A stretch of DNA of 64,000 nt from a virus: the IMG/VR virus record IMGVR_UViG_3300048999_000056, positions 48,819 to 112,818 of that record. The stretch is one strand, 5' to 3'. The notes below the pieces were generated by a model that was given only the letters and a program-made list of their open reading frames with translations, was not told where the DNA came from and made no database searches. Positions 3,336 to 62,437 of the stretch are shown one piece after another. Made by a program: the position numbers and the translations under genes. Position 1 is the stretch's first letter. Each line of letters begins with the position of its first letter.

Positions 3336-4483
3336 GCGAGAAACCATGGGCGATCATCTGCCGGTTTGGCGGCGTCGGCGACAACCTGATTGTATCCTCC
3401 GTGCTGCCGCTGCTGGCGCGGAAATACAATGTCGAAGTTATCGCGCAGGCGCCGTTTCACGTCGTCTTCGAGAACAACCCGCACGTGGCGCGGTTGACAG
3501 TGCGCCAGCGCTCCGACCTGCCGAGCGATGCCATGCCCTGGCAACGCTGGTTTGACGACAGAGCGATCGGCGCCGACATGCTGGTCAACCTCTCGCATTC
3601 CTGCGAGTCCATGCTGTGCCTGTTTGAAAGCCAGACGCAGTATCGTTGGCCGGATGCATGGCGACGCCAGCACTGCGGGCGCAACTACTTGGAGCACACG
3701 CACGACATCGTCGGCGTGCCGCACGAGTTCGATCCGCGCTTCTATCCGACACGCGAAGAATGGCAACGTGCGGAGGAGGTTCGCCGGACAGTCGGCGGAC
3801 GCTATGTTGCGTGGTGCCTGTCCGGCACGCGCTACGACAAAATCTTCCCGTCAGCCCCGATCGCGATAGCGCGCATTATCAACGAACTGCAAATGCCTGT
3901 CGTGATGCTGGGTGCTCCTGGCAAGGATTCCGATCTCGGCAAGAGCATTCAGGAGCACGTCAAGAAGCACAACGGCACCGATCGCGGGCTGCATCTTGCG
4001 GTGTCTGCCGACGCGACGAAGACGGCGCCCGAGCTGCGCGATGCCTTGGGCCTGCGCGAGAACGTCGAGGCTTGGCCGATCAGGCGCGTGCTGACACAGA
4101 CCATGCTGGCTGATCTGGTGATATCGCCTGATACCGGTCCGGCGTGGGCAGTGGCCATGTCAGCAATGCCGAAGATCATACTGTTGAGCCACGCCTCGCC
4201 GGAGAACATCACGAAGCACTGGCGCAACACGGTGACGCTGCATGCTGATCAGCAGCGTGTGTCGTGCTGGCCGTGCCACAAGTTGCACGAAGGACCGCAC
4301 ACGTGCCGGCCGAACGCCGACAACAACGGCGCCTCGTGCATCAGTGACATCAGCGTGGAGACGATCGTGTCAACCGCTGATGCGTTGTTAACCCAAGAAA
4401 GGAAACCCGACCAATGGCAGGTATCTCAGCTTATCACGAAAAGCAGCTGCTGGACTTCGGACTGGGTGGTGCAGGCGCCGTAA
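3332..4483 (+). CDS. Glycosyltransferase family 9 (heptosyltransferase-like)
   Basis: 383 residues, start at an ATGA overlap. The N-terminal CRFGGVGDNLIVSSVLPLLA is the GT9 signature (GxxGDxxxxxPxL), and the C-terminal half has the nucleotide-sugar site (LADLVISPDTGPAWAVAMS). Cellular GT9 enzymes add heptose to lipopolysaccharide core. A phage copy among fibre genes could glycosylate a virion protein or alter the host surface; the substrate cannot be read from sequence. The 3' end overlaps the next gene by 70 bases, unusually long for this region, so the last ~23 residues may not be conserved. Confidence 0.82.
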   Translation: MSEKPWAIICRFGGVGDNLIVSSVLPLLARKYNVEVIAQAPFHVVFENNPHVARLTVRQRSDLPSDAMPWQRWFDDRAIGADMLVNLSHSCESMLCLFESQTQYRWPDAWRRQHCGRNYLEHTHDIVGVPHEFDPRFYPTREEWQRAEEVRRTVGGRYVAWCLSGTRYDKIFPSAPIAIARIINELQMPVVMLGAPGKDSDLGKSIQEHVKKHNGTDRGLHLAVSADATKTAPELRDALGLRENVEAWPIRRVLTQTMLADLVISPDTGPAWAVAMSAMPKIILLSHASPENITKHWRNTVTLHADQQRVSCWPCHKLHEGPHTCRPNADNNGASCISDISVETIVSTADALLTQERKPDQWQVSQLITKSSCWTSDWVVQAP

Positions 4484-4818
4484 GCCAGCCCGCATCAGGC
4501 TCGCACGGTGTCGGACTGTCGCTTGGTGCGCCGACCTCGATTTCTGCATCCGAGATCGCAACCGGTTCCGGTTGGACACGTCAGCCGATCGGCTTCGCGG
4601 CGGCGGCGTCACCGGCCGGTTCGGCGTCGAACAACACCGCAGCGACATTCGGACCAGGGCTGACCGGTGCGACGTTCTCCGGTCTGCAAATCTTCGATGA
4701 TACGCGGTCCGGCACCGGCAACATGCTCTGGTATGGCAACCTCGCCACGCCGCGCACGCTGGGCGTCGGCGACAGCTTGGTGATCGCAACCGGTGCGTTG
4801 ACTATTACCCTCGCCTGA
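4414..4818 (+). CDS. Phage tail fibre / decoration-like protein
   Basis: 134 residues, start at ATG 4414 after an AAAGGAAA site, inside the end of the glycosyltransferase gene. MAGISAYHEKQLLDFGLGG, then GSGWTRQPIGFAAAASPAGS and FSGLQIFDDTRSGTGNMLWY, is the layout of the small single-domain proteins annotated as phage tail fibre or tail-associated proteins (N-terminal helix, then beta sandwich ending LVIATGALTITLA). Probably structural. Family assignment is from memory of the pattern. Confidence 0.7.
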   Translation: MAGISAYHEKQLLDFGLGGAGAVSQPASGSHGVGLSLGAPTSISASEIATGSGWTRQPIGFAAAASPAGSASNNTAATFGPGLTGATFSGLQIFDDTRSGTGNMLWYGNLATPRTLGVGDSLVIATGALTITLA

Positions 4819-4878
4819 TCTGTCGGGTGCAGTCCAACGGTCTGCACCCCACGGACTTCCTAAAGAGCGGCTTCGACA

Positions 4879-7800
4879 ATGGCGTGGTCCTTCGTCGGTG
4901 CCGGCGCTTTAGCGTCCGTCACCACCACAGCGATATCGGTAGCAGAGCCCGCTGGTGTACAAGCCGGCGATCTTCTTGTTGCGCTCATATCGCATCGTGC
5001 CGCGTCGGGTGCCGCTTCGGTGGTGCTGCCGACTGGTTGGACTCTCGTTACTGAGCAGAAGGTCGGCAACACCACCGCCGCCAGCACGTTAGGCATCGGC
5101 AACGGCGTCATGGCCTACCGGGTCGCGACCGGAGCCGGTGGGCCGTGGAGCTTCACGGTTCCGACCGCGAACGTTGCGCTCGGTCGCATTCTTGTCTACC
5201 GCGGTCAGGACAAGCTCGCGTCGCCACTGTGTATGACACGCAGCACGACGACGGCAACCGCCACGACGAGCATCAGCGTTACTGGCCTAACAACGCCGAA
5301 CGCCAACTGTCTGATCATTCACGGTCTATGCGGCGCACAGAATGGCGCGATGTCGGCATTCGACGCCGCGACCGATCCAACGACTGCTAGCGGCACGGGC
5401 GGTCAAACAGGCGCTCCAACTGCCGGGACATGGCTGGAGCGAACCGATGACGCTACCGCGAATGGTTCCGATTGTAGTCTGGCAATTGCAGACGCGGTTC
5501 GGGCCACGTCGGGCGCCACAGGCAATTTCACCGCGACGGCGGCGCTGGGTTGTGGCTACGCCTCGCTCGTCGGCGTGTTCAAACTCGACGTTGCAATCCC
5601 AGCCGGCCAACGGCTGGTCACGCATTACATCATCGGAACGGGAACCGGCAGCTTCACGCCGCCGTCCACCGTCAACGCGATCGTCGAAGTATGGGGCGCG
5701 GGCGCCACTGGAAACACCGCGAGCGGCGTGGGCGGTAACGGTGCTGGTTGGTCACGGGATAGTAGCTACGCGCTAACAGCGGCAACGCCGGTCAACTTTT
5801 CGCTCGGTGCTCCCGGCGCGACCTCTGCGGCGGCCGGTGGCGATACTTGGTGGGCAACATCCGGCACGCTGATAGCGAACGGCGGCGGGTCCGCTACCGC
5901 GCGGATCGGCGACGTGACGTTTGTCGGTGGCGTGGCGAGCACCAACTCTGCCACCGGTAACACCGGGGGCGGTGGCGCAGCCGGTCCGTATGGACCTGGG
6001 CGAGCCTCTGGCAGTGCTGGCAGTGGTGGCGGAACGGGTGGCGGTGGTAACGGCGGCGGCACCGACTCAACAGCTTCCGCAACGGCAGCTGGCACCGCTG
6101 GCGGCAATGGTTTCGCTGGAACGGGCGGCGCTGCTGGCGTTGCAAATGGTAATGGTTCGCCGGGCGGTCCGGGCGCGGGCGGTGGCGGTGGCGGTAACAC
6201 GACAGGTCAAGGCGCTCGCGGTGGTGATGATTGGAGCAACGGCGGCGGCGGTGCGGGTGGCACAGGCAGCCTCGCCAATCATCCTACAACGGCGGTCGGC
6301 GGCACGCCGGGTGCTGGCGGTGCGGCGGCAAATGCGGCACTTGGGCGCGGCGGTTACAGCCTCGTCAAACTCAGCTATGTTGGGACCGACGATGACAGCC
6401 TGACAGTTGTCGGCTCGCTGTCGAACATCGTCTTCGCGCGACCGGGTGCAGCTCATATTGCCGGCACCGGCTCGATATCGGCCAATGCAACAGTCGTCAG
6501 TGGCGGTCCGACTACTTGGCAAGGGACTGCAACATTTGCTGGCGTAGCGTCGGTTAGTGCTGTCACTGCCTACGTCAAACCGCAACAATGGGACATCGGC
6601 AACTACTATCATCCCAACGTCACGCTGTCGGGCACGGGCGGAAACTTTACCGCGCTGCAGACGGGGAGCAGCGGCAACCGTGCATCGGTGGTTGCGACTG
6701 AGTTTTTCAATACCGGCAAATACTACTGGGAACTGCAGATCGATTCCACTGGCGGCGGTCAGTATGTCGGACTGGCGCGTGCAGCGTTCGATCCCAACGG
6801 CTTCGATTCCGCCTTGTATGCGACTGAGGTTACGTGGTGGACCTTTACCGCTGACTCATCCGGTCATATAGTTGCTGCTAACGTCGAGATCAGCGCCGGG
6901 GCACCGTTCTACACGACTGGCGATCGTGTCCAGTTTGCCTGGGATGCTACCAATCATCTGATATGGCTTAGAGTCAACAATGGCTCTTGGGCGAACGGCG
7001 GTGATCCGGCAGCCGGGACCAACGGTTACGATATCTCGTCCGTGACGGGACCTCTCGCTCCGGCGATCTCGCTGGGCGGCACGAATGATCAGATATCAAC
7101 CAAGTTCGATCGTGCCTCGTGGTCCGGCACGGCGCCAGCCGGTTTCGCTCAATTCGACCCTGTCATTCTACAGGGAACTGCAACGCTAGCCGGCACGGGC
7201 TCGCGGACCTTTAACGCCACGCACACACCGGCAGGCACAGCAACAATTGGCGGTGCCGGTTTGCTTAGCGTCTCTGCGCGGATCATTGACCGGATCGACC
7301 CTGTCACGCTGGCAGGTATCGGCTCAATTACTGCAAACGCTACGCATACGCCGGCAGGCACAGCCGTTTTCGCCGGTCTAGGTTCGTTAACTGTTGACGC
7401 AACTGTTGTTCTCGGCACTGTCACGTGGCAGGGCTCGGCAACGTTTGCAGGCGTCGGCACGCTCAGTGTCAATGCGACGCACACGCCAGCCGGACAGGCG
7501 ACGATCAACGGCGCCGGTTCGCTTGCTGTCACTGCGACGCTGATCGATGCTATAGACGCTCTTACGCTGCCAGGTGCCGGCTCTCTCAGCGTCAACGCCA
7601 CGCATACGCCGGCTGCGGCTGCGACGTTTGCCGGTATCGGCTCGGTCACGCTCAATGCGACTTTGACTGCTCCGGTCACGGCGAATATCAACGGCACCGG
7701 ATCGGTCACTGCCAATGCTACGCACACGCCGGCTGCGACGGCATCGCTCAACGGTGTCGGATCGATAGCAGCAACCGCGACGGTCATCGCTCGTGCCTCA

Positions 7801-11981: not shown

Positions 11982-12437
11982 ATGGCAATTCTCAACGCAA
12001 CAGCCGGCATATCAGGTGTCGGCAGGCTGACGGCAATCGCTGCGGCAAAGGAAACAGCGACGGCGGTCCTGTCGGGCAATGCCAGCGTATTTGTCAACGC
12101 TGTCAATGCGCTGCATCTGGCGAGCCCGCCAAACTATCCGATTCCGCCGCAGGCGGATGACGCTGCGCCTGTCTTTCTTGTCGATCCGGCAACCGGTGCC
12201 GCAGTCGGCGCAACAGGACCGTACGCAAACGCACTGCCGGTGACGCCGGCCGATGTCGGCTCACTGCCGGCAACCACGCGTGCGTTGTGGATCGGCGGTG
12301 CCGGTAACGTGACGGTTGACACTCTTGGCGGACAGACAGTCACGCTGACCGCAGTGGCAGCAGGAACATTGCTGCCACTGCAAGTCTCGCGTGTCCGTGC
12401 GGCGACAACGGCGACGTTGGTCGTCGCGTTGTGGTGA
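11982..12437 (+). CDS. Small late protein with adhesin-type N-terminal repeat
   Basis: 151 residues, two bases after the previous stop. Residues 1-45 (ILNATAGISGVGRLTAIAA ... TAVLSGNASVFVNA) are one to two copies of the ~20-residue unit that makes up the adhesin at 4879-9225. The rest is a compact beta domain (LPATTRALWIGGAGNVTVDT) similar to small phage proteins of unknown function. Last rightward gene before the repeat tract. Probably virion associated; function unknown. Confidence 0.7.
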   Translation: MAILNATAGISGVGRLTAIAAAKETATAVLSGNASVFVNAVNALHLASPPNYPIPPQADDAAPVFLVDPATGAAVGATGPYANALPVTPADVGSLPATTRALWIGGAGNVTVDTLGGQTVTLTAVAAGTLLPLQVSRVRAATTATLVVALW

Positions 12438-13446
12438 TGCCTGCGCTGACGGGTCGCACCCTGCCGCGCCTAACCGTGTCGGGCGATGCCTGCCAAGCCC
12501 TGACAATCCACGTCTTGCGTTGCCGTGCCGTGCCGGGCCTGCCGGGTCAAGCCGGGACCTTCCGAGCGTTGCGATGCCGCGTCTGCCCCGCCATGACATG
12601 CCTTGCCGTTGCGAGCGTAGCCTTGCCTGCGCTGTCTTGCCGTGACGGACCTAGCCGCGCTCTGCCCTGTCGAGCCTGCCATGCCATGCCCTGACGATCT
12701 ATGCCATCCCGAGCCGAGCCTAGCCAGCCACGTCAAGCCGTGCCTTGACACGTCTTTCCAAGCCTAGCCGAGCCGAGTCTGCGTTGACCTGCCAATCGAT
12801 ACCTCGCCGTGCCAAGCCGCGTCTGCCCTGCCTCGGCCTGCCGAACGATACCATGCCCTGCAGACCCATGCCTGCGATGCCGGAACGTGCCCTGCGCTCT
12901 CGTGCCACGTCACCACGTACCCTGCCTGCGCCGCCTCAACGCGTCCTACCGAGCCAAGCCGAGACAAGCCTGCGATGCGGCGCCTAGCCTCGCCTCGACG
13001 GATGTCGCCTCGCCTAGCCTGCGTTGCCACAACCAGCCCCCCGAGATCAGGCGAACCCAGCGTGTCCAAGCCTGCCACGCGCCGCCCGGACTGCCCTTGC
13101 CTATCGGTGTCGCCCCGAGCCGGCCGCGCCCTGCCTCGCCCAGTCTCGTCCTGCCAGGACGTGCCTTGCCTGCCCCGTCGTGACGTGCCCAGCGCGGCGT
13201 AGCCGAGCCTGCCATGCCATGACCGGTCTAGTCCCGCCTAACCATAGCGGGCCGCGCCTGCCCCGCCATCCGGGCGTCGCCTTGCCGAGCCTTGTCGAAC
13301 CATGCCTGCGACGCCTTGCCACGGCGTTACGCGTCTAGCCGCACCTTGCCGAGCCTGCGACGCGATGCCTTGCCAAGCCACGTCGCAACCCGCCAAGCCT
13401 GCGTTGCCATCCCTCGAATTGCCCAGCCAACGCTAACCCTGCCCTG
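12438..13446. repeat. Degenerate pentanucleotide tract 1 (NNGCC period 5)
   Basis: About 1 kb without credible genes. GCC recurs every five bases on the + strand: from 12676 to 12725, 7 of 10 consecutive in-phase pentamers end in GCC (ctgcc, atgcc, atgcc, atgcc, gagcc, gagcc, tagcc). The phase slips by one base every 50-100 bases. The strand is C-rich, so a leftward transcript would be G-rich (GGCNN). Longer words recur: cgagcctgccatgccatg at 12671 and 13204, and cctgcgttgcca near 13018 and 13398. Open frames inside it are low-complexity by-products of the period. It lies where rightward late and leftward early genes converge. Confidence 0.85.
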
Positions 13447-13499: not shown

Positions 13500-14021
13500 C
13501 TACTGTCTGCGGCGCTTTCGCCCTGCCTTGCGGTCGGGGCCTTTGCGTGCTGGCGACTTCACCGTGCCACCTTCCAGCTGATCCTGCCGGCGCCGCTCCA
13601 GTTCGGCAATCCGCTGGCCTTCATCGAACAGGCGCGACATTTCGGTCAACCGCTGATACTTGATATGGAAGCGGTTGAAGTCATCTAGCGCGTCCTTCAA
13701 CATGACGCGCCGCAAGTCACGATCGGGCAGAATGCGATCAAGCGGACGATAACCGCCGCCCGCGTGACGATCGATACTCAACGAGATCATGGTGCGCTGC
13801 CCGGTATCGTCAACAACATGAATGGCAATCAGGCGGCGTATCTGGTCGAGCCGATAGCGGTATCCTGCCTTGGCGTCTTCCCATTCGAGTTCTTCATGCA
13901 GTGCCGAGCTGGGATGCGTAGCAGCCCAGTCGTGCACCACCTTGACGTAGAGATTGCCATCGGGATCGAGCCGGCGCAGCGCCTCCAGTTCCTGCTGGAT
14001 GCGCGCCGTGGATTCAAGCAT
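13500..14021 (-). CDS. Conserved phage protein, unknown
   Basis: 173 residues; start at ATG 14021 with AGGAGG eight bases upstream. The pattern NLYVKVVHDWAATHPSSALH, EELEWEDAKAGYRYRLDQIR and later LKDALDDFNRFHIKYQRL recurs in many phages (a ~140-residue protein with an HD..LEWDD core). Function is unknown to me. The C-terminus is very basic (KSPARKGPDRKAGRKRRRQ), suggesting nucleic-acid contact. Last gene of the leftward block. Confidence 0.75.
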   Translation of the reverse strand: MLESTARIQQELEALRRLDPDGNLYVKVVHDWAATHPSSALHEELEWEDAKAGYRYRLDQIRRLIAIHVVDDTGQRTMISLSIDRHAGGGYRPLDRILPDRDLRRVMLKDALDDFNRFHIKYQRLTEMSRLFDEGQRIAELERRRQDQLEGGTVKSPARKGPDRKAGRKRRRQ

Positions 14022-14262
14022 TGTTCGGCCTCCTGGTTGAACGCGCGGCCCAGCCGATAGCGTTCGCCAGATCGCCTTTTTCCATTGCCAGCTCATACTT
14101 GTTGAGTGCGAGCATGTGTTGCGTGAACTTGCGCTCGCGCCGTGCCCATGTGCCAATACGCCGCTTCCTCCGAGGCGGCGTTTCCTGCAATGCTTTCTCC
14201 TTCAGCGCCTCTTGTGCGAGGCGCTGCCCTTCACGGGTTATGTTTTTCAACCGGCTAAGCAT
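14014..14262 (-). CDS. Small basic helical protein, unknown
   Basis: 82 residues, overlapping both neighbours (its ATG lies in the last codons of the upstream gene, its 3' end overlaps the next start). Rich in Arg/Lys with two helices (LKNITREGQRLAQEALKEKA, LNKYELAMEKGDLANAIGWA). No ribosome site of its own is evident, so it probably depends on translational coupling. No family recognised. Confidence 0.65.
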   Translation of the reverse strand: MLSRLKNITREGQRLAQEALKEKALQETPPRRKRRIGTWARRERKFTQHMLALNKYELAMEKGDLANAIGWAARSTRRPNNA

Positions 14263-15265
14263 TGCTGTTGACTACGTCCCACAAGCCCCAGTCCAGACCG
14301 TTGGAGTTCGGCGAGGAGGGCCGCCCCTCGCCGACGCCGACCTGCATACCGGCAATCGCCATCAGGTTGACCACGTCGGTTGCCGAGAACTGCCGCGCGT
14401 CCCAGCGGACGGTCACGGCGGCGTTCCACTTTTCCCACATAGGCCGGTGGCGGATATCGGCAACGCCTGATGCGTTGCGGGCTGGCGCCTCGTGCAGCCG
14501 TGGCGTGCCGTTGATCTTGACGAGCGGCTGCCCATCCTGATCGAGTCCGTCCGGCACGATGAACAACGACAGCTTGGCGCGTGTCATCGTGAAGCCGGCA
14601 AGGCGGCACGCGTCAATCATCGCGTTGCGGAAAGCCGGCGCCGGAATGCCGTGCCATCCGTCACGCGCGATATGCTGCGCCAGACGGTAGATTTCTTCGA
14701 AGTCCTTCGGCTCGCGACGGCGGCGTGACTTTTCGCCCTGCGAACCCGCCTTCTGCCGCTCCACCATCATGTTGACGGCTTTCTGGCTGAATTTGTGTTG
14801 CACGTAAGGCGTAGAGCCTCTGATGTAGACGATGCCGCGATCGAACTGCGGCGGTTGAATGACGACGCGCGTCACCTTGCCGCTCAACACGCCAACCGTG
14901 CCTTGCTCCATGGTGCTGTCGAGCGTTTCGATCGGGATCGGCGAGGCGGGTATCCTGCCGAAATTGTCGGTGTTGCGCATTGACGGCCCGGCTACTGCAC
15001 CCTTGCCGTTCTTGCCCTTGCCGTTCCGACCGATCGTCGCCTCACGTTCCGCCAGCAGGTCCGCAACCGGATTGCCGCCAGCGTGCGCCGCCTCGAATGC
15101 GGCTTTCTGCTGTCTCTCGTCGCGTGACATAGGTCCGCGCTTGCCGGGCTCGCGTGCCCAAACGGCCGGCTCAACGTCTTCGACTGCGGGAGCTGTCCCC
15201 CTCTGCGCCAGCTTCTTGGCCTTCAATGCCTTCTTGGCGCTTTTCTTGTCCTTCAACGTCGTCAT
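14255..15265 (-). CDS. Conserved phage protein with RAMP-like C-terminal pattern
   Basis: 336 residues; start at ATG 15265 after GAGGG. The first ~125 residues are basic and disordered (KDKKSAKKALKAKKLAQRG). From ~130 on: YIRGSTPYVQHKF, DGWHGIPAPAFRNAMIDACR, DIRHRPMWEKWNAAVTV and a glycine-rich end QVGVGEGRP...GLDWGLWDV. This set is widespread in phages as a hypothetical protein. The order (substrate strand, IPAxAFRxAxxxA helix, G-rich loop near the end) resembles RAMP/Cas7-type RNA-binding folds, which is my inference. A promoter-like element lies directly upstream. Confidence 0.72.
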   Translation of the reverse strand: MTTLKDKKSAKKALKAKKLAQRGTAPAVEDVEPAVWAREPGKRGPMSRDERQQKAAFEAAHAGGNPVADLLAEREATIGRNGKGKNGKGAVAGPSMRNTDNFGRIPASPIPIETLDSTMEQGTVGVLSGKVTRVVIQPPQFDRGIVYIRGSTPYVQHKFSQKAVNMMVERQKAGSQGEKSRRRREPKDFEEIYRLAQHIARDGWHGIPAPAFRNAMIDACRLAGFTMTRAKLSLFIVPDGLDQDGQPLVKINGTPRLHEAPARNASGVADIRHRPMWEKWNAAVTVRWDARQFSATDVVNLMAIAGMQVGVGEGRPSSPNSNGLDWGLWDVVNSNA

Positions 15266-15314: not shown

Positions 15315-15348
15315 CCTATATATACAAAACGCCTATTCGTGTTGAACT
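15315..15348 (-). promoter_or_regulatory. Phage promoter candidate (TCAACACG ... GTATATATA)
   Basis: On the minus strand TTCAACACG (15347-15339) is followed after 12 bases by GTATATATAGG (15325-15315). The same pair recurs at 18066-18101 and 22921-22957, each time just after a stop and 50-110 bases before the next leftward gene. Here it overlaps the last codons of the cysteine-cluster gene. Confidence 0.6.
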
Positions 15349-27762: not shown

Positions 27763-28318
27763 TGCTGCGCTCGTCGTTGCTGTTGTGAAATTCGCCAAAT
27801 AGCTGCCGTGCTGCTTGTTCGTAAGCTGCTGCGGCATCCTCGGGTGTCTTGAAGTATCCCAACGACTTGCGTTTGCCGTTGATATTTATGTACGCGATCC
27901 ATCTAGGTGGTAGCTTCGGGCGATGCTTACCATTGTAGCGAGCCACTCCTCGGTATCCAGAAGTGTTATTAGCATGGCGACGGCGGTTCTGCATGTTCTG
28001 CGAGTGGGTAGCCTCTCGCAGATTGTCGTGTTTGTCGTTGATTGCGTTTCGATTCCGGTGATCGATCTCCTGTCTCGGAAACCGCCCGGTTGTGAGCGCC
28101 CATATGATATGTGAAGCTAGGTAGTTCTTGCCTGCAATCTTCACTAAGCGATAGCCATTGCGATTTATACATCCGGCGAGCATGCCTCCTCGTACGCGAC
28201 CGTGAAGTCCTTTTCGCCATCGTAGAATGCCTGTAGATGGGTCGTACATAAACAGCGACCGTAAGATTTCAACGGCATCCGATTCTAGATTAGCAACGCC
28301 AGTAAGCTGTTGCGGCAT
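27755..28318 (-). CDS. HNH-AP2 homing endonuclease
   Basis: 187 residues; ATG 28318 follows GGAGAAG. HNH_3-type core RQEIDHRNRNAINDKHDNLR (~90-110), NMQNRRRHANNTSGYRGVAR, then an AP2 DNA-binding end WIAYININGKRKSLGYF...DAAAAYEQAARQLFGEF. Inserted between the SbcC-like and DnaB-like genes; its last eight bases overlap the helicase start. A free-standing mobile gene that would spread by cutting the uninterrupted junction in related phages. Confidence 0.92.
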   Translation of the reverse strand: MPQQLTGVANLESDAVEILRSLFMYDPSTGILRWRKGLHGRVRGGMLAGCINRNGYRLVKIAGKNYLASHIIWALTTGRFPRQEIDHRNRNAINDKHDNLREATHSQNMQNRRRHANNTSGYRGVARYNGKHRPKLPPRWIAYININGKRKSLGYFKTPEDAAAAYEQAARQLFGEFHNSNDERSNG

Positions 28319-28350
28319 ATAGACTTCTCCGTTTGCTCTTGGTCCTAATG

Positions 28351-30144
28351 CTACCGAAGACGGTTGATCGACGTTCCCTCTTGCTCCCGTGTGCACACCC
28401 AAACTTCATCGAATGGGAATGTCATTGAGCGGTGGTCCAGCAACCAGACGGCACGTGCACTCTGTTCCGTGCGGTCCTGCAGGCACGTCAACAAATCATC
28501 GATGCCCTCCGGTGACAGCCAAGCCGTCGGTTCATCGAATACCTCTACCGAGTGATATACGCCGGCCATGTTCTGTATCAGGGAAGCCAGTCCGAAACTC
28601 ACTGCCAGCTTGACGCGTTGCGCCTCGCCGAACGAGTAGGACTTGTATGTGCCCTGCCCGAGCGCGTTGACGGCGTGCACGTGGATACCGGGTGAACGCG
28701 TGCCGGACTCGATCTCATAGCGGATGCGCCATGCCCCGATGCCGAGCTGTGCGGCTGCCGATGCCGTCTCGATCTCCAGCAATGCCAGGATGCGGCGGAT
28801 CAGGAACAGCCGGACCAACCGAAAACCGCGCTTCCAGTAGTCAACCTTGATCTGATCCTCGGCCAGCGTCTCGATCGCAAATTGCAGGCTCTGGACGGTT
28901 TCGGCGAGCTGGTCAGCCTGCTGGCGGACCGACGCGATACGGTCTGCCAGGGGCGCTGCCTGGCTGCCACGCTGGGCTTCCTCCAGCCGCTGGCGGGCTT
29001 GTGCCAGACCGCGCTGGCAGGCTGCCACGTCGGCCCGTGCGGCGGTCTGTTCGTGCTCGCATCGCACGCGCGCTTCACGGGCTTTCTTGGCTTCGACTTC
29101 TACCTCCACCATGACCCTACCGGCATCGCGCCAGTCGCGCTCCAGGTGGTCGAGTTTTACGCCCGTATCGTCAGCCTGTAATTCGAGTTCTCGCATCCGA
29201 CGTTGCGCGAACACCTGATCGATCCGTTGCTTGCACGTTGGGCATGACTTGTGGTCGCGCAGGAAGTCGCTGTCTCCGAGGATGTCCTTATGCCGGAATG
29301 CCGCCTGCGTGTGATCGGTGCGGATGACTTCGATAATGTCCTGCAGCTCGCGTAACTGCAGATCGATGTCCTGTTCCGCCTGCTGCCTCGCCGTCAATGC
29401 CTGAGCAATGCCACGGGCACGCTGTTCGGCAGCACGCAATGCGTTGTCGGCCTGCACATAGTCATTCTTCAAGCCTTCCTCTGCGCGCGCATGATAGTCC
29501 TGCCATTCGGCTTGTGTCGCCGTGAGTTCCTGCAACAGTTTGTCGAGCCCGCTCGCGCGGCCTGCCTCGTGGGACTTGGTATTGTTGAGTTCGCTCAGGC
29601 TCTTCGTCATTTTCGCCGACTGCTCGCCGGCAAAGTCTGACAATTTCAGCCAGACGCCCAGTCCCATGATCTCGTCCATCAACGCGCTACGTTCTGGTAT
29701 CGACAGGTCCATGAACAGCGGCGCCGACTGGCCGAAGATCACCGAATGCACGAAGCGCAACCGCGTCATGCCCATCAGCGCATCGACGGCAGCCTGCGGC
29801 ACCGGCTCATTGTTCAACAGTAGCGTATCAGGCGAACCGGTGCGATCGATGATTTGCGTTTCACCGTCAACATTATACTGCGCGATGACATGCGGACGTT
29901 GCTTGAGTTCCCACGTGGCGAGGTCCGACGCGCGCTCGCCTCGGATCGAGGTCCCATAAAGGCACCACGTCAACGCATCCCACAACGATGACTTGCCGCT
30001 GCCGTTCGATCCGAGCGCGGGCTCGACCTTGTTGATTCCAGTGATGAAGCGGAACCCGCCCTCGGTCGGAAATTCGATCCGTGTCTCCTGGCTGAAGCAA
30101 CGAAACGCGGTGATCGTCATTGCCTCCAGCACGATCAGCCGCAT
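28351..30144 (-). CDS. SbcC/Rad50-like recombination nuclease subunit (T4 gp46 type)
   Basis: 597 residues from ATG 30144; an internal ATG at 30120 (MTITAFRCF) has the better site (GGAGG) and may be the true start. Walker A ALGSNGSGKSS, long coiled coils with a zinc hook SCPTCKQR in the middle, ABC signature SFGEAQRVKLAVSF, Walker B VEVFDEPTAWL, and a final D-loop/His region WLLDHRSMTF. With the SbcD-like protein encoded at 30562 it should form an Mre11-Rad50 type complex that resects ends for recombination-dependent replication. Shorter than cellular Rad50 but normal for phages. Confidence 0.92.
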   Translation of the reverse strand: MRLIVLEAMTITAFRCFSQETRIEFPTEGGFRFITGINKVEPALGSNGSGKSSLWDALTWCLYGTSIRGERASDLATWELKQRPHVIAQYNVDGETQIIDRTGSPDTLLLNNEPVPQAAVDALMGMTRLRFVHSVIFGQSAPLFMDLSIPERSALMDEIMGLGVWLKLSDFAGEQSAKMTKSLSELNNTKSHEAGRASGLDKLLQELTATQAEWQDYHARAEEGLKNDYVQADNALRAAEQRARGIAQALTARQQAEQDIDLQLRELQDIIEVIRTDHTQAAFRHKDILGDSDFLRDHKSCPTCKQRIDQVFAQRRMRELELQADDTGVKLDHLERDWRDAGRVMVEVEVEAKKAREARVRCEHEQTAARADVAACQRGLAQARQRLEEAQRGSQAAPLADRIASVRQQADQLAETVQSLQFAIETLAEDQIKVDYWKRGFRLVRLFLIRRILALLEIETASAAAQLGIGAWRIRYEIESGTRSPGIHVHAVNALGQGTYKSYSFGEAQRVKLAVSFGLASLIQNMAGVYHSVEVFDEPTAWLSPEGIDDLLTCLQDRTEQSARAVWLLDHRSMTFPFDEVWVCTREQEGTSINRLR

Positions 30145-38429: not shown

Positions 38430-38456
38430 GGGATATACGAAACGCCGAAAAAGCCT
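38430..38456 (-). promoter_or_regulatory. GTATAT promoter candidate for polymerase gene
   Basis: Minus strand GGCGTTTCGTATATCCC, 40 bases before the polymerase start and at the inner edge of repeat tract 2. It matches the GCG-TTTT-GTATATA half of the element at 15315-15348, without the TCAACACG box. Confidence 0.5.
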
Positions 38457-39080
38457 GCGCTGCCGCTGCCCGCCCTGCCTTGCCGAACCGGGTCATGCCA
38501 AGCCAGCCCTGCCGGTCCGAGTGCTGCCCTGGCTAGCGTAGACCTGCCACGCCGGCCATGCCCTGCCTTGCCTTCCCGGACGTGCCGAGCGTGGCCTGCC
38601 ATGCCGAGCGTTGACCTATCTTGCCGCCCTGGCCGTTCCGAGCCAAGCCTGCCGATCCGCGTCGATCCGCGCCAAACCTAGCCGCGCCTGCCACGTCTCG
38701 CCACGGCGGGCGGGTCGATGCCATCCCGCGCCATGCCCGCCATGTCAAGCCTTTACGTGCCCTGCCTAGCCGATACGAGCGGTGCCTGCGTTGCCGAACG
38801 TTTGCATGCCCCGTCTAGCCAATACAGGTCGCGCCTGCGTTGCCAAATCGCACCCCGTCTAGCCGACACAAGCCCCGCCTGCGATACCGAGCCATACGCA
38901 GACTGGCCTAGCCGTGCCCTGACGAGCCTGCCCCGATCAGACCTCGTCGGTCCATGCCTAGCCGAGCGCAGCCTGCGTTGACGATCCGCGTCTTGCCCGG
39001 TCAACCCGTGCCATGCCTAGACCACCACGCCTGCCAAGCGTTGCCGATACGAGCGCTTCCTTGCCGGGCCGAGCCGCGCC
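38457..39080. repeat. Degenerate pentanucleotide tract 2 with ~49-base units
   Basis: About 620 bases with the same NNGCC 5-base period and the same strand as tract 1. Within it CTAG recurs at 38766, 38815, 38859, 38908, 38958 and 39017 (steps 49, 44, 49, 50, 59). In the first four units GCCTGC follows at exactly +18 (38784, 38833, 38877, 38926). So there is a higher-order repeat of about 44-50 bases built from the pentamers. No credible gene. It lies between an unrelated small gene and the DNA polymerase gene, with a promoter-like motif at each edge on the minus strand. Confidence 0.85.
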
Positions 39081-39083
39081 TGA

Positions 39084-39112
39084 TTCCTATATACCTATCG
39101 CCTTTTGTTCAA
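39084..39112 (-). promoter_or_regulatory. GTATATA promoter candidate leading into repeat tract 2
   Basis: Minus strand TTGAACAAAAGGCGATAGGTATATAGG overlaps the last codons of the upstream gene (stop 39095-39097). Transcription from it would run straight through repeat tract 2 as a G-rich RNA and on to the polymerase gene. Confidence 0.45.
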
Positions 39113-39553
39113 CTGTTCCATGACACGGTTGAACTTCTGCTCGGCTGTCTCCGGCTTGCCGCGTTCGCGCAGAAACTTGATTACGTCCGGTGCAGATTCT
39201 TGCGGCACTCTGAAACGGAAATCGGCATATGTGGGATCGTGGCTGCAATCGTTGTCGCCAAGATAACCTGGCAGGGCGCGGAGGTCGGCATTCCAGGGAC
39301 CGCGCGGCGGGTCGGCGTCAGGTGCGAAGTACTCGGGATAGCTCCTCCTGCAACGTTCCTCGCTTTCATAGTAGTCGCGATTGCCGCCACCAGTTCTCGT
39401 ATGCACGACGATGACAGGCACCGTCTCTGTGTCATCACTCCAGGTGAAGTATGCGTCGCGGAACCGTGGAACGTTGTCGGTCGTGATACACAACATGGAC
39501 AATGCCAACGGTGCCACGGGTTCCGTGCCGAACAGATGGTGATAGAGACTCAT
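39095..39553 (-). CDS. Conserved phage protein (MSLYHHLFG family), unknown
   Basis: 152 residues; ATG 39553 follows AAGGAGG. The start MSLYHHLFGTEPVAPLALSM, then VPRFRDAYF, VVHTRTGGGNRDYY and PTYADFRFRVP recur in many phages as a conserved protein of unknown function. The C-terminus is a charged helix. ATGA coupling with the upstream zinc protein. Confidence 0.75.
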   Translation of the reverse strand: MSLYHHLFGTEPVAPLALSMLCITTDNVPRFRDAYFTWSDDTETVPVIVVHTRTGGGNRDYYESEERCRRSYPEYFAPDADPPRGPWNADLRALPGYLGDNDCSHDPTYADFRFRVPQESAPDVIKFLRERGKPETAEQKFNRVMEQLNKRR

Positions 39554-39876
39554 TGTGGTTCCTCCTTCGTTGGTCGAATATCGGGCCATGTCTTGCCGCC
39601 ACCTTTCCCCACGGCGGACGCGCCGCCAGTGATGGATACGGTGATCAACATTTGCGTCACGCCTTCAGGCACAACAAACCACCCGGCCGGCGTCCTGAAC
39701 TTCGATCCGGGAATCAGATCGGTCATTTGATAGGTCGTGTTATCATAGAGATGCGCTGGCATCTGGCGCTGCCCTCCGCATTCGTTGCATACGTCTCCAT
39801 AGCCTGTGCCATGGCCAGAGAACCCGCTGCCTCCGCACCGTGGACAATCAACCATCGACGCTGCGGTTGGTCCCAT
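39550..39876 (-). CDS. DnaJ-type zinc-finger protein
   Basis: 108 residues; ATG 39876 follows AGGAGG. CPRCGGSGFSG...CNECGGQ is a DnaJ-like zinc motif at residues ~11-36; the rest is a beta domain (RTPAGWFVVPEGVTQMLIT). Second protein of this type in the window (other at 24016). Function unknown. Confidence 0.72.
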   Translation of the reverse strand: MGPTAASMVDCPRCGGSGFSGHGTGYGDVCNECGGQRQMPAHLYDNTTYQMTDLIPGSKFRTPAGWFVVPEGVTQMLITVSITGGASAVGKGGGKTWPDIRPTKEEPQ

Positions 39877-61229: not shown

Positions 61230-61416
61230 TACGGCGGACAGCGCAAAGCTGTTGATTGACAGCGTGACCAAAGCGTTGAAGCGCGGGGTTGAACACTACG
61301 ACAAGCGCGGTAGGCGGTTGTGGACCGTCCGCGATGTCCTGAGCGCCCTGCAACGGGATGGCGAGATCGAGCTATGCGAGAAAGGCGGTGGGGCCGGTGA
61401 TCAGAATGACACCTGA
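61204..61416 (+). CDS. Small helical protein, unknown
   Basis: 70 residues; ATG 61204 follows GGAGGGGAAT and overlaps the previous gene by 26 bases. Helical, charged (LLIDSVTKALKRGVEHYDKR). No family recognised. Confidence 0.62.
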   Translation: MPQTPTKDDTADSAKLLIDSVTKALKRGVEHYDKRGRRLWTVRDVLSALQRDGEIELCEKGGGAGDQNDT

Positions 61417-62164
61417 TCCGTTCGCTCAGTTGCTCGACGCGCTGCAACAGGTCGTCAATGACGCGAAGATCGGCGCGCTCAAGGCAACGGCGAACGCCAC
61501 ACGCGTAGAGGGCGAACCGCCACGCGTAGACATGCAAGCCGTTCAACGATTCATGGCGGAGCGAGGAATGTCAGAAACAGGTAGAGGCCATTACTACTGG
61601 GTGCGTGTGCGAGGCAACCCGGCTCCTATGATCGGTATGCGTAGCCAGATTTCAGGCGCTTGGTATATATCAGGTGTGGCGGGCGGATATGCCGATGCTG
61701 ATATCGAAGTCATCCGCTCGGTCGAACCATTCGAGCAACCGATGGCTGACTACTGTGCCGCGACAGGTATAGTTGATAAGCCGCCGAAAACACCGCATGA
61801 TCCGCTGAAAGGGCACACGCTGTTGCTGGTCAAGACTTCTAGCGGTTACTCATATTCGGTGCAACCCGAGCGCGCAATGGAAACGGCGATGAAGCTGGCG
61901 CAGACAGAGCCGGTTTACATACTTGACGGTCATACCCGGGAGATTCTCGTGTCGCTGGGAAAAGGGCAAACGATGATCAACAATCCGATCCCCGATGACG
62001 TGCTGGAAGCGATGGCGGACGCGATGCTCGATCCGCCGCTGCGGATTCCGGGCAAGGTGCCGAACGCGGAGGGCAACAAGGTCCGCACGCGCGCCCTGTC
62101 TCGTGCGCTCGCAGCGGCGGAAGAACTCGGCTGGGTGATGGTCAAGGCGGAAACGCGGGAATGA
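61406..62164 (+). CDS. Unknown protein, 252 residues
   Basis: ATG 61406 overlaps the previous gene; site weak. Mixed alpha/beta with an aromatic run GHYYWVRVRGNPAPMIGMRS and Thr/Ser-rich central part (LLLVKTSSGYSYSVQPERAM). The C-terminal ~70 residues are helical (LSRALAAAEELGWVMVKAET). Function unknown. Confidence 0.62.
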   Translation: MTPDPFAQLLDALQQVVNDAKIGALKATANATRVEGEPPRVDMQAVQRFMAERGMSETGRGHYYWVRVRGNPAPMIGMRSQISGAWYISGVAGGYADADIEVIRSVEPFEQPMADYCAATGIVDKPPKTPHDPLKGHTLLLVKTSSGYSYSVQPERAMETAMKLAQTEPVYILDGHTREILVSLGKGQTMINNPIPDDVLEAMADAMLDPPLRIPGKVPNAEGNKVRTRALSRALAAAEELGWVMVKAETRE

Positions 62165-62197
62165 GCCTGCAGATAATCAACGGTAAGGAACTGCATC

Positions 62198-62437
62198 ATG
62201 GCCGTCACTCCGGAACAGACAGCGTTTGTCCATACATTGTCTGACTGCATCGACAACAACAGAGGCGCGCTGAACGAGCAACAGATTGCTGCTGCCTTGT
62301 TTACCGGCGCGCTGTCGCATCTGTCGCACGCCGATGTTACAGACAAGGAGCGGTGGGCTACTCTCGTCGCATGGACGAGTTTTATCAACATGCTGAAGCA
62401 TGACGCCATTGCGAACCTTCTTGTGGGGAAAATGTAG
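62198..62437 (+). CDS. Small helical protein, unknown
   Basis: 79 residues; TAAGGAACT upstream. Helical (LNEQQIAAALFTGALSHLSH, TLVAWTSFINMLKHDAIANL). Ends with TAG overlapping the next GTG. No family recognised. Confidence 0.62.
   Translation: MAVTPEQTAFVHTLSDCIDNNRGALNEQQIAAALFTGALSHLSHADVTDKERWATLVAWTSFINMLKHDAIANLLVGKM

Follow-up and report, generated by a model that had tools for sequence, protein, structure and literature searches.

Dispersed arrays of GGY-NN pentamers in a phage genome are very probably guide-RNA genes of a VIPR system

We analyzed a stretch of viral DNA of 64,000 nucleotides (the window), which corresponds to bases 48819-112818 of a virus record of 112,818 bases (IMGVR_UViG_3300048999_000056); the remainder of the record was also scanned for repeat tracts. 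HMM segmentation detected five tracts of NNGCC pentamers in the 112.8-kb record, which read (GGY-NN)n on the other strand. The names used below refer to VIPR (Viral Interference Programmable Repeat), a phage-borne relative of CRISPR that a 2026 preprint (PMC13142463) describes as a phage RAMP homologue, Vipr, together with an accessory protein and vrRNAs. The features are as follows, in window positions unless the record is named.

38451-39080, minus (RNA strand, GGY-NN repeats; record 87269-87898): tract 2, putative vrRNA array E, from HMM segmentation, unit segmentation and spacing statistics
38766-38931, minus: four units with CTAG 18 bases before GCCTGC, boundaries GCCTGC at 38784, 38833, 38877 and 38926
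39088-39094, minus: GTATATA promoter-like box of array E, 14 nt 5' of the first unit
12437-13446, minus (record 61255-62264): tract 1, array D, approximately 20 units, from HMM and unit segmentation
13500-14021, minus: candidate vipr-accessory (vap) gene, 173 aa, phrog_15946
14255-15265, minus: predicted vipr gene, 336 aa, phrog_4652 (E=3.3e-14), adjoining tract 1
14258-14878, minus: RAMP-like core of vipr
15319-15325, minus: GTATATA promoter-like box of vipr, approximately 60 nt upstream of the gene
Record 3524-5449, strand opposite to that of the other four arrays: array A, from HMM segmentation
Record 27828-28324: array B, from HMM segmentation
Record 29887-30113: array C, from HMM segmentation

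Array E contains approximately 10 units of 39-58 nt along with irregular stretches. Its identity at lag 5 is 0.43, compared to 0.20-0.31 at lags 3, 4, 6, 7 and 8, and a period-10 model barely improves on the period-5 model. The fitted five-state repeat model reads N-[A/T]-G-C-C and gives four-base steps a probability of 12%. An earlier, sequence-only reading of this tract had placed CTAG at 38766, 38815, 38859, 38908, 38958 and 39017, with GCCTGC at exactly +18 from the first four sites; when the letters were re-read, all these positions and the offset were reproduced, and two extra CTAG sites were found (38533 and 38678). The offset is beyond chance, as none of 2000 NNGCC tracts simulated under the fitted model had at least four such pairs at one offset. 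The pair noted in tract 1 (13335/13353) is present as well, and the proposed grouping of pentamers into units of approximately 49 bases was borne out by GCCTGC spacings quantised as 5n+4 (44/49/54/59). However, as a higher-order signal the CTAG-GCCTGC distance, although exact, proved to be a secondary effect, the GCCTGC-to-GCCTGC spacing being stronger: the distance is fixed because the fourth NN from the unit boundary is TA in four successive units. The CTAG signal reflects similar neighbouring guides.

The same unit structure was found when all five tracts were considered together. There are 61 copies of GCCTGC (GCAGGC on the other strand), compared to 12 +/- 3 in simulations, and 26 spacings of exactly 44, 49, 54 or 59 bases, compared to 0.2 in simulations. 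On the RNA strand, units break at GCAGGC and have lengths of 44, 49, 54 and 59 bases; at each break only one base, an A, stands in place of an NN, which accounts for the 5n+4 length and the phase break GGC-A-GGC. Clean 5n+4 segments between 34 and 64 bases make up 36 of 74, the remaining stretches being irregular. The units are mostly 44-59 nt long with approximately 8-11 repeats each, total approximately 60-70 over the five arrays, and may overlap, as in the staggered arrays described in PMC13142463. Both this structure and the repeat rule are direct computational results, and the units of approximately 49 bases look like single guides. The GGY motif is loose in this phage (approximately 0.82 for the first G and 0.75 for the second G), while all 16 NN values are in use. 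No CRISPR-type identical direct repeats with unique spacers were found in the tracts; it is the NN of each pentamer that varies. A search of the window against Rfam gave no match, hammerhead ribozyme included. It should be noted that, among six readings of the NN composition, the best fit is to codon positions 1-2 in antisense, which we keep only as a weak hint, since NN may have constraints of its own.

We also studied the gene that adjoins tract 1. Judging by profile searches and a predicted structure, ORF 14255-15265 is a member of the Vipr family with a RAMP fold. The family phrog_4652 is common to this ORF, to the Vipr of Escherichia phage SUSP1 and to the gene beside the tract of cluster F mycobacteriophages; the SUSP1 (L253) Vipr and accessory genes were placed from the locus layout given in PMC13142463. 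An AlphaFold (AF2) model of the window protein, built from an alignment of 62 Vipr cores, reached pLDDT 92 and pTM 0.87, compared to pLDDT 37 only for single-sequence input. When this model was searched against the PDB with Foldseek, the best 50 matches were all CRISPR RAMPs, with type VII complex subunits and Csm leading (E ~1e-4, TM-score ~0.5, ~10% identity). The profile of the 62-sequence alignment matches SUSP1 Vipr (PDB 36pp) at E=8e-42, whereas the match of the window protein alone is weak (phmmer E=0.48); membership in the family therefore rests on profiles and fold. The protein has a basic, lysine-rich N-terminal extension of approximately 128 residues (window 14881-15265), and the Brocalys version is shorter. 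Array D belongs to the vipr operon, where it directly follows vipr and the vap candidate, and its RNA strand is the vipr strand; the gene and the operon are likewise computational observations. The counterpart of the vap candidate in the relative L256 is located directly downstream of vipr and is 38% identical; the L256 contig carries two different vipr genes (3879-4490 and 6169-6783). Another ORF, 39095-39589 (minus strand), which lies beside tract 2, has a TGGGNR motif and was our first guess for vipr, was dropped because it has no PHROG or Pfam match.

The association between the tract and the gene was studied in loci that were fetched by DNA pattern alone. The pattern (GCCNN)x8 matched at least 120 viral contigs, and a Vipr homologue was present in 84 of the 120 viral loci fetched: 62 of 75 loci with a tract of at least 150 bp, 22 of 39 with a shorter tract, and none of the 6 without a called tract. 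The RNA (GGY) strand is the vipr strand in all Vipr-bearing viral loci except L047 and L101. No Vipr was detected within the locus for 13 of the 75 long-tract loci; some Vipr-less records carry phrog_4652 elsewhere on the contig. On one contig of 67.6 kb (L038), which has a long NNGCC tract, nothing matched phrog_4652; this contig possibly holds a divergent Vipr type. Among bacterial loci, 3 of 120 have Vipr (L149, L158 and L227), and the tracts of L158 and L227 are NN-diverse; bacterial matches to the pattern are mostly low-diversity simple repeats. The control pattern (CCGNN)x8 gave Vipr in 3 of 77 new viral loci, all three of which carry a long NNGCC tract. Conversely, a search with the Vipr protein yielded four loci in which vipr has an adjoining tract of matching orientation, and cluster F mycobacteriophages gave distant blastn matches with tracts of this type. 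We conclude that an NNGCC tract is predictive of a same-strand RAMP gene; this general link is a computational observation.

These comparisons also bear on claims of the earlier reading about copy number. The shared rule, strand and function of tracts 1 and 2 stand, however the tracts in the record number five, not two; further tracts exist in relatives and elsewhere in the same genome. The relatives L256, L257 and L258 have the same kind of units as this phage. In other viral arrays, four-base steps are GGY-A-GGY in 219 of 275 cases, and a boundary word is found at the 3' end in 18 of 86 VIPR tracts and hence is not general; the GCAGGC boundary seems restricted to some clades. Other boundary words, GAACCTTGCC and CGTTCCTCGCC, recur on the GCC strand every ~60-75 bases (L113, 4934-5834; L127, 849-1571). 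In an isolate-derived 75-kb phage (L031, 6925-7168), GGY arrays are flanked by tRNA-gene-like sequences.

Two explanations that require no guide RNA can be weighed at this point. Polymerase slippage, leaving a neutral and degenerate microsatellite, could account for the simplicity of the pentamer rule and for the few units that resemble diverged duplicates. However, across kilobases and many unrelated contigs GGY is preserved while NN takes every possible value, so that decay would be confined to two of five positions; bacterial matches with the same pattern are almost never next to vipr, and the tract-Vipr association contradicts this model, which we consider extremely improbable. Alternatively, the tract could be a protein-bound DNA satellite with half-helical-turn (5 bp) sites for a phage DNA-binding protein, e.g., a partition or replication-origin site. 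The strict 5-base period, the non-coding status and the several copies per genome would suit such a site, but the four-base steps at every unit boundary break the phase and would spoil helical phasing, the NN positions are hypervariable, and the tract predicts a same-strand RAMP gene; this explanation is very unlikely. The earlier idea of a phage protein bound to the unit is retained in spirit, but the binder would be expected to be Vipr acting on opposite-strand RNA, rather than a satellite DNA-binding protein. Primase-site, rut-site and TRAP-like readings of the tract were set aside as unneeded once the VIPR preprint was known.

We therefore identify tract 2, with high confidence, as a vrRNA array, in which guide-RNA genes of a VIPR system lie in tandem, and dozens of small guide RNAs are very probably encoded by the five arrays. 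According to PMC13142463, vrRNAs consist of 9-16 YNNGG (GGY/NN) repeats, and in reading DNA they skip one base; type II vrRNAs have a 3' tail of conserved structure, and there are other types with other array architectures. The type II VIPR of SUSP1 shares with this phage a phrog_4652 RAMP-like protein, an accessory-gene candidate, a phage genome, and intergenic GGY/NN repeats on the vipr strand with an array downstream of the protein genes. Compared to the four vrRNAs of SUSP1, this phage has approximately 60-70 units in all, and these are spread over five arrays, four of which are 25-60 kb from vipr, each with its own promoter-like box; its units are arranged head to tail and abut with only AGGC between them, with no structured 3' tail separating them as in type II vrRNAs, its GGY is looser, and its Vipr has the extra N-terminal extension. 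The cluster F mycobacteriophages Quico and Brocalys likewise have the NNGCC tract beside a phrog_4652 gene on the same relative strand, but theirs is a single short tract of ~250 bp in an unrelated phage lineage. The fold is shared with type III/VII CRISPR RAMPs (Csm3, Cmr and type VII Cas7), whose repeated subunits, as also noted in PMC13142463, sit on the guide RNA with periodic disruption; the difference is that the tracts of this phage have no CRISPR repeats and spacers and the protein identity is low.

Among other RNA-guided phage systems, TIGR-Tas might also be considered, as might a CRISPR-like mini-array. TIGR-Tas likewise has phage-encoded tandem guide arrays beside a single small RNA-binding protein (PMC12045711). 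However, its arrays are dual-repeat or stem-loop, with dual-spacer 36-nt guides read by a Nop-domain protein (PMC12045711), whereas the tracts of this phage follow a single pentamer rule with no edge/loop repeat pair and the array-adjacent protein is RAMP-like; we regard this alternative as hardly credible.

For the VIPR reading, expression of the arrays is of interest. The heptamer GTATATA has 14 copies in the record, both strands counted, and is located 11-14 nt 5' of the first unit in arrays A, B, C and E in the correct (GGY-strand) orientation; the distance is 11-12 nt for arrays A, B and C, which lie outside the window. These promoter-like boxes are computed from the letters, and given that array D is in the vipr operon, GGY-strand transcription of all five arrays would be expected. 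Further GTATAT boxes with an upstream AACACGAA-like element are found at record positions 106447(+), 71749(-) and 66897(-), and the two elements together probably represent a phage promoter class. Near apparent structural genes there is a plus-strand stretch in which arrays B and C run antisense.

The mechanism that we propose begins with array E, which would probably be transcribed from the promoter at 39094 on the minus strand into (NN-GGY)n RNA. This RNA would be cut into, or would function as, units of ~8-11 repeats with GC-A-GGC at their borders; Vipr (14255-15265) would form a polymer on each unit in which every GGY is bound and every NN exposed, and the NN pairs would read a double-stranded DNA target with one base skipped per repeat. 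The likely outcome is that competitors in the same host, whether phages, satellites or prophages, are silenced or blocked. Vipr binding, the skip rule and the silencing of competing elements are proposed by analogy with the system in PMC13142463, where natural VIPR targets were mapped to satellites and prophages.

We searched for targets of the predicted guides. Decoded targets of units C1, D10, E5 and A21 (9 NN each, 1-nt skip) had no exact matches in IMG/VR viral contigs, and when all arrays were compared to the fetched DNA (2.2 Mb), only low-complexity words exceeded the level of shuffled guides. Units with at least 8 NN had no match in the phage's own DNA outside the arrays (1-base skip, 0 or 1 mismatch). 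As evidence for or against targeting, these negative results carry little weight. The lack of self-matches bears on the possibility that the arrays act mainly on the phage's own or host genes (expression timing, superinfection exclusion of kin), rather than on competitors: the array promoter-like box is common to vipr and a few other phage genes, and the antisense position of arrays B and C would suit such a role, but there is no near-exact self-target, and the natural targets mapped in the preprint point elsewhere. We consider the possibility unlikely.

VIPR itself has already been described (PMC13142463), and this phage is an unusually large, dispersed VIPR system. The additions are the five dispersed arrays with their many units and looser GGY, the extended Vipr, the promoter-like boxes at array starts, and an unbiased demonstration that a DNA rule predicts the protein; the supplement of the preprint may cover some of these. 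The raw sequence alone thus gives independent support for VIPR, as the pentamer rule predicts a RAMP gene in unselected contigs, and (GGYNN)n is a one-line DNA signature for finding VIPR-type systems. Whether the arrangement is a genome-wide guide library, i.e., one vipr operon and four promoter-driven arrays in trans over 80 kb with ~60-70 guides, some antisense in the plus-strand stretch, is in our view evenly balanced. If it is, the phage would carry an immune repertoire of about the size of a CRISPR array, and successive similar units, such as the CTAG-bearing ones of tract 2, would have diversified as guides to match variants of a single target. These results suggest that the number of guides a phage can carry, and the number of places in which it carries them, go well beyond the examples described first; this is relevant to the question of how viruses assemble and renew guide libraries in the absence of Cas1-like adaptation machinery.
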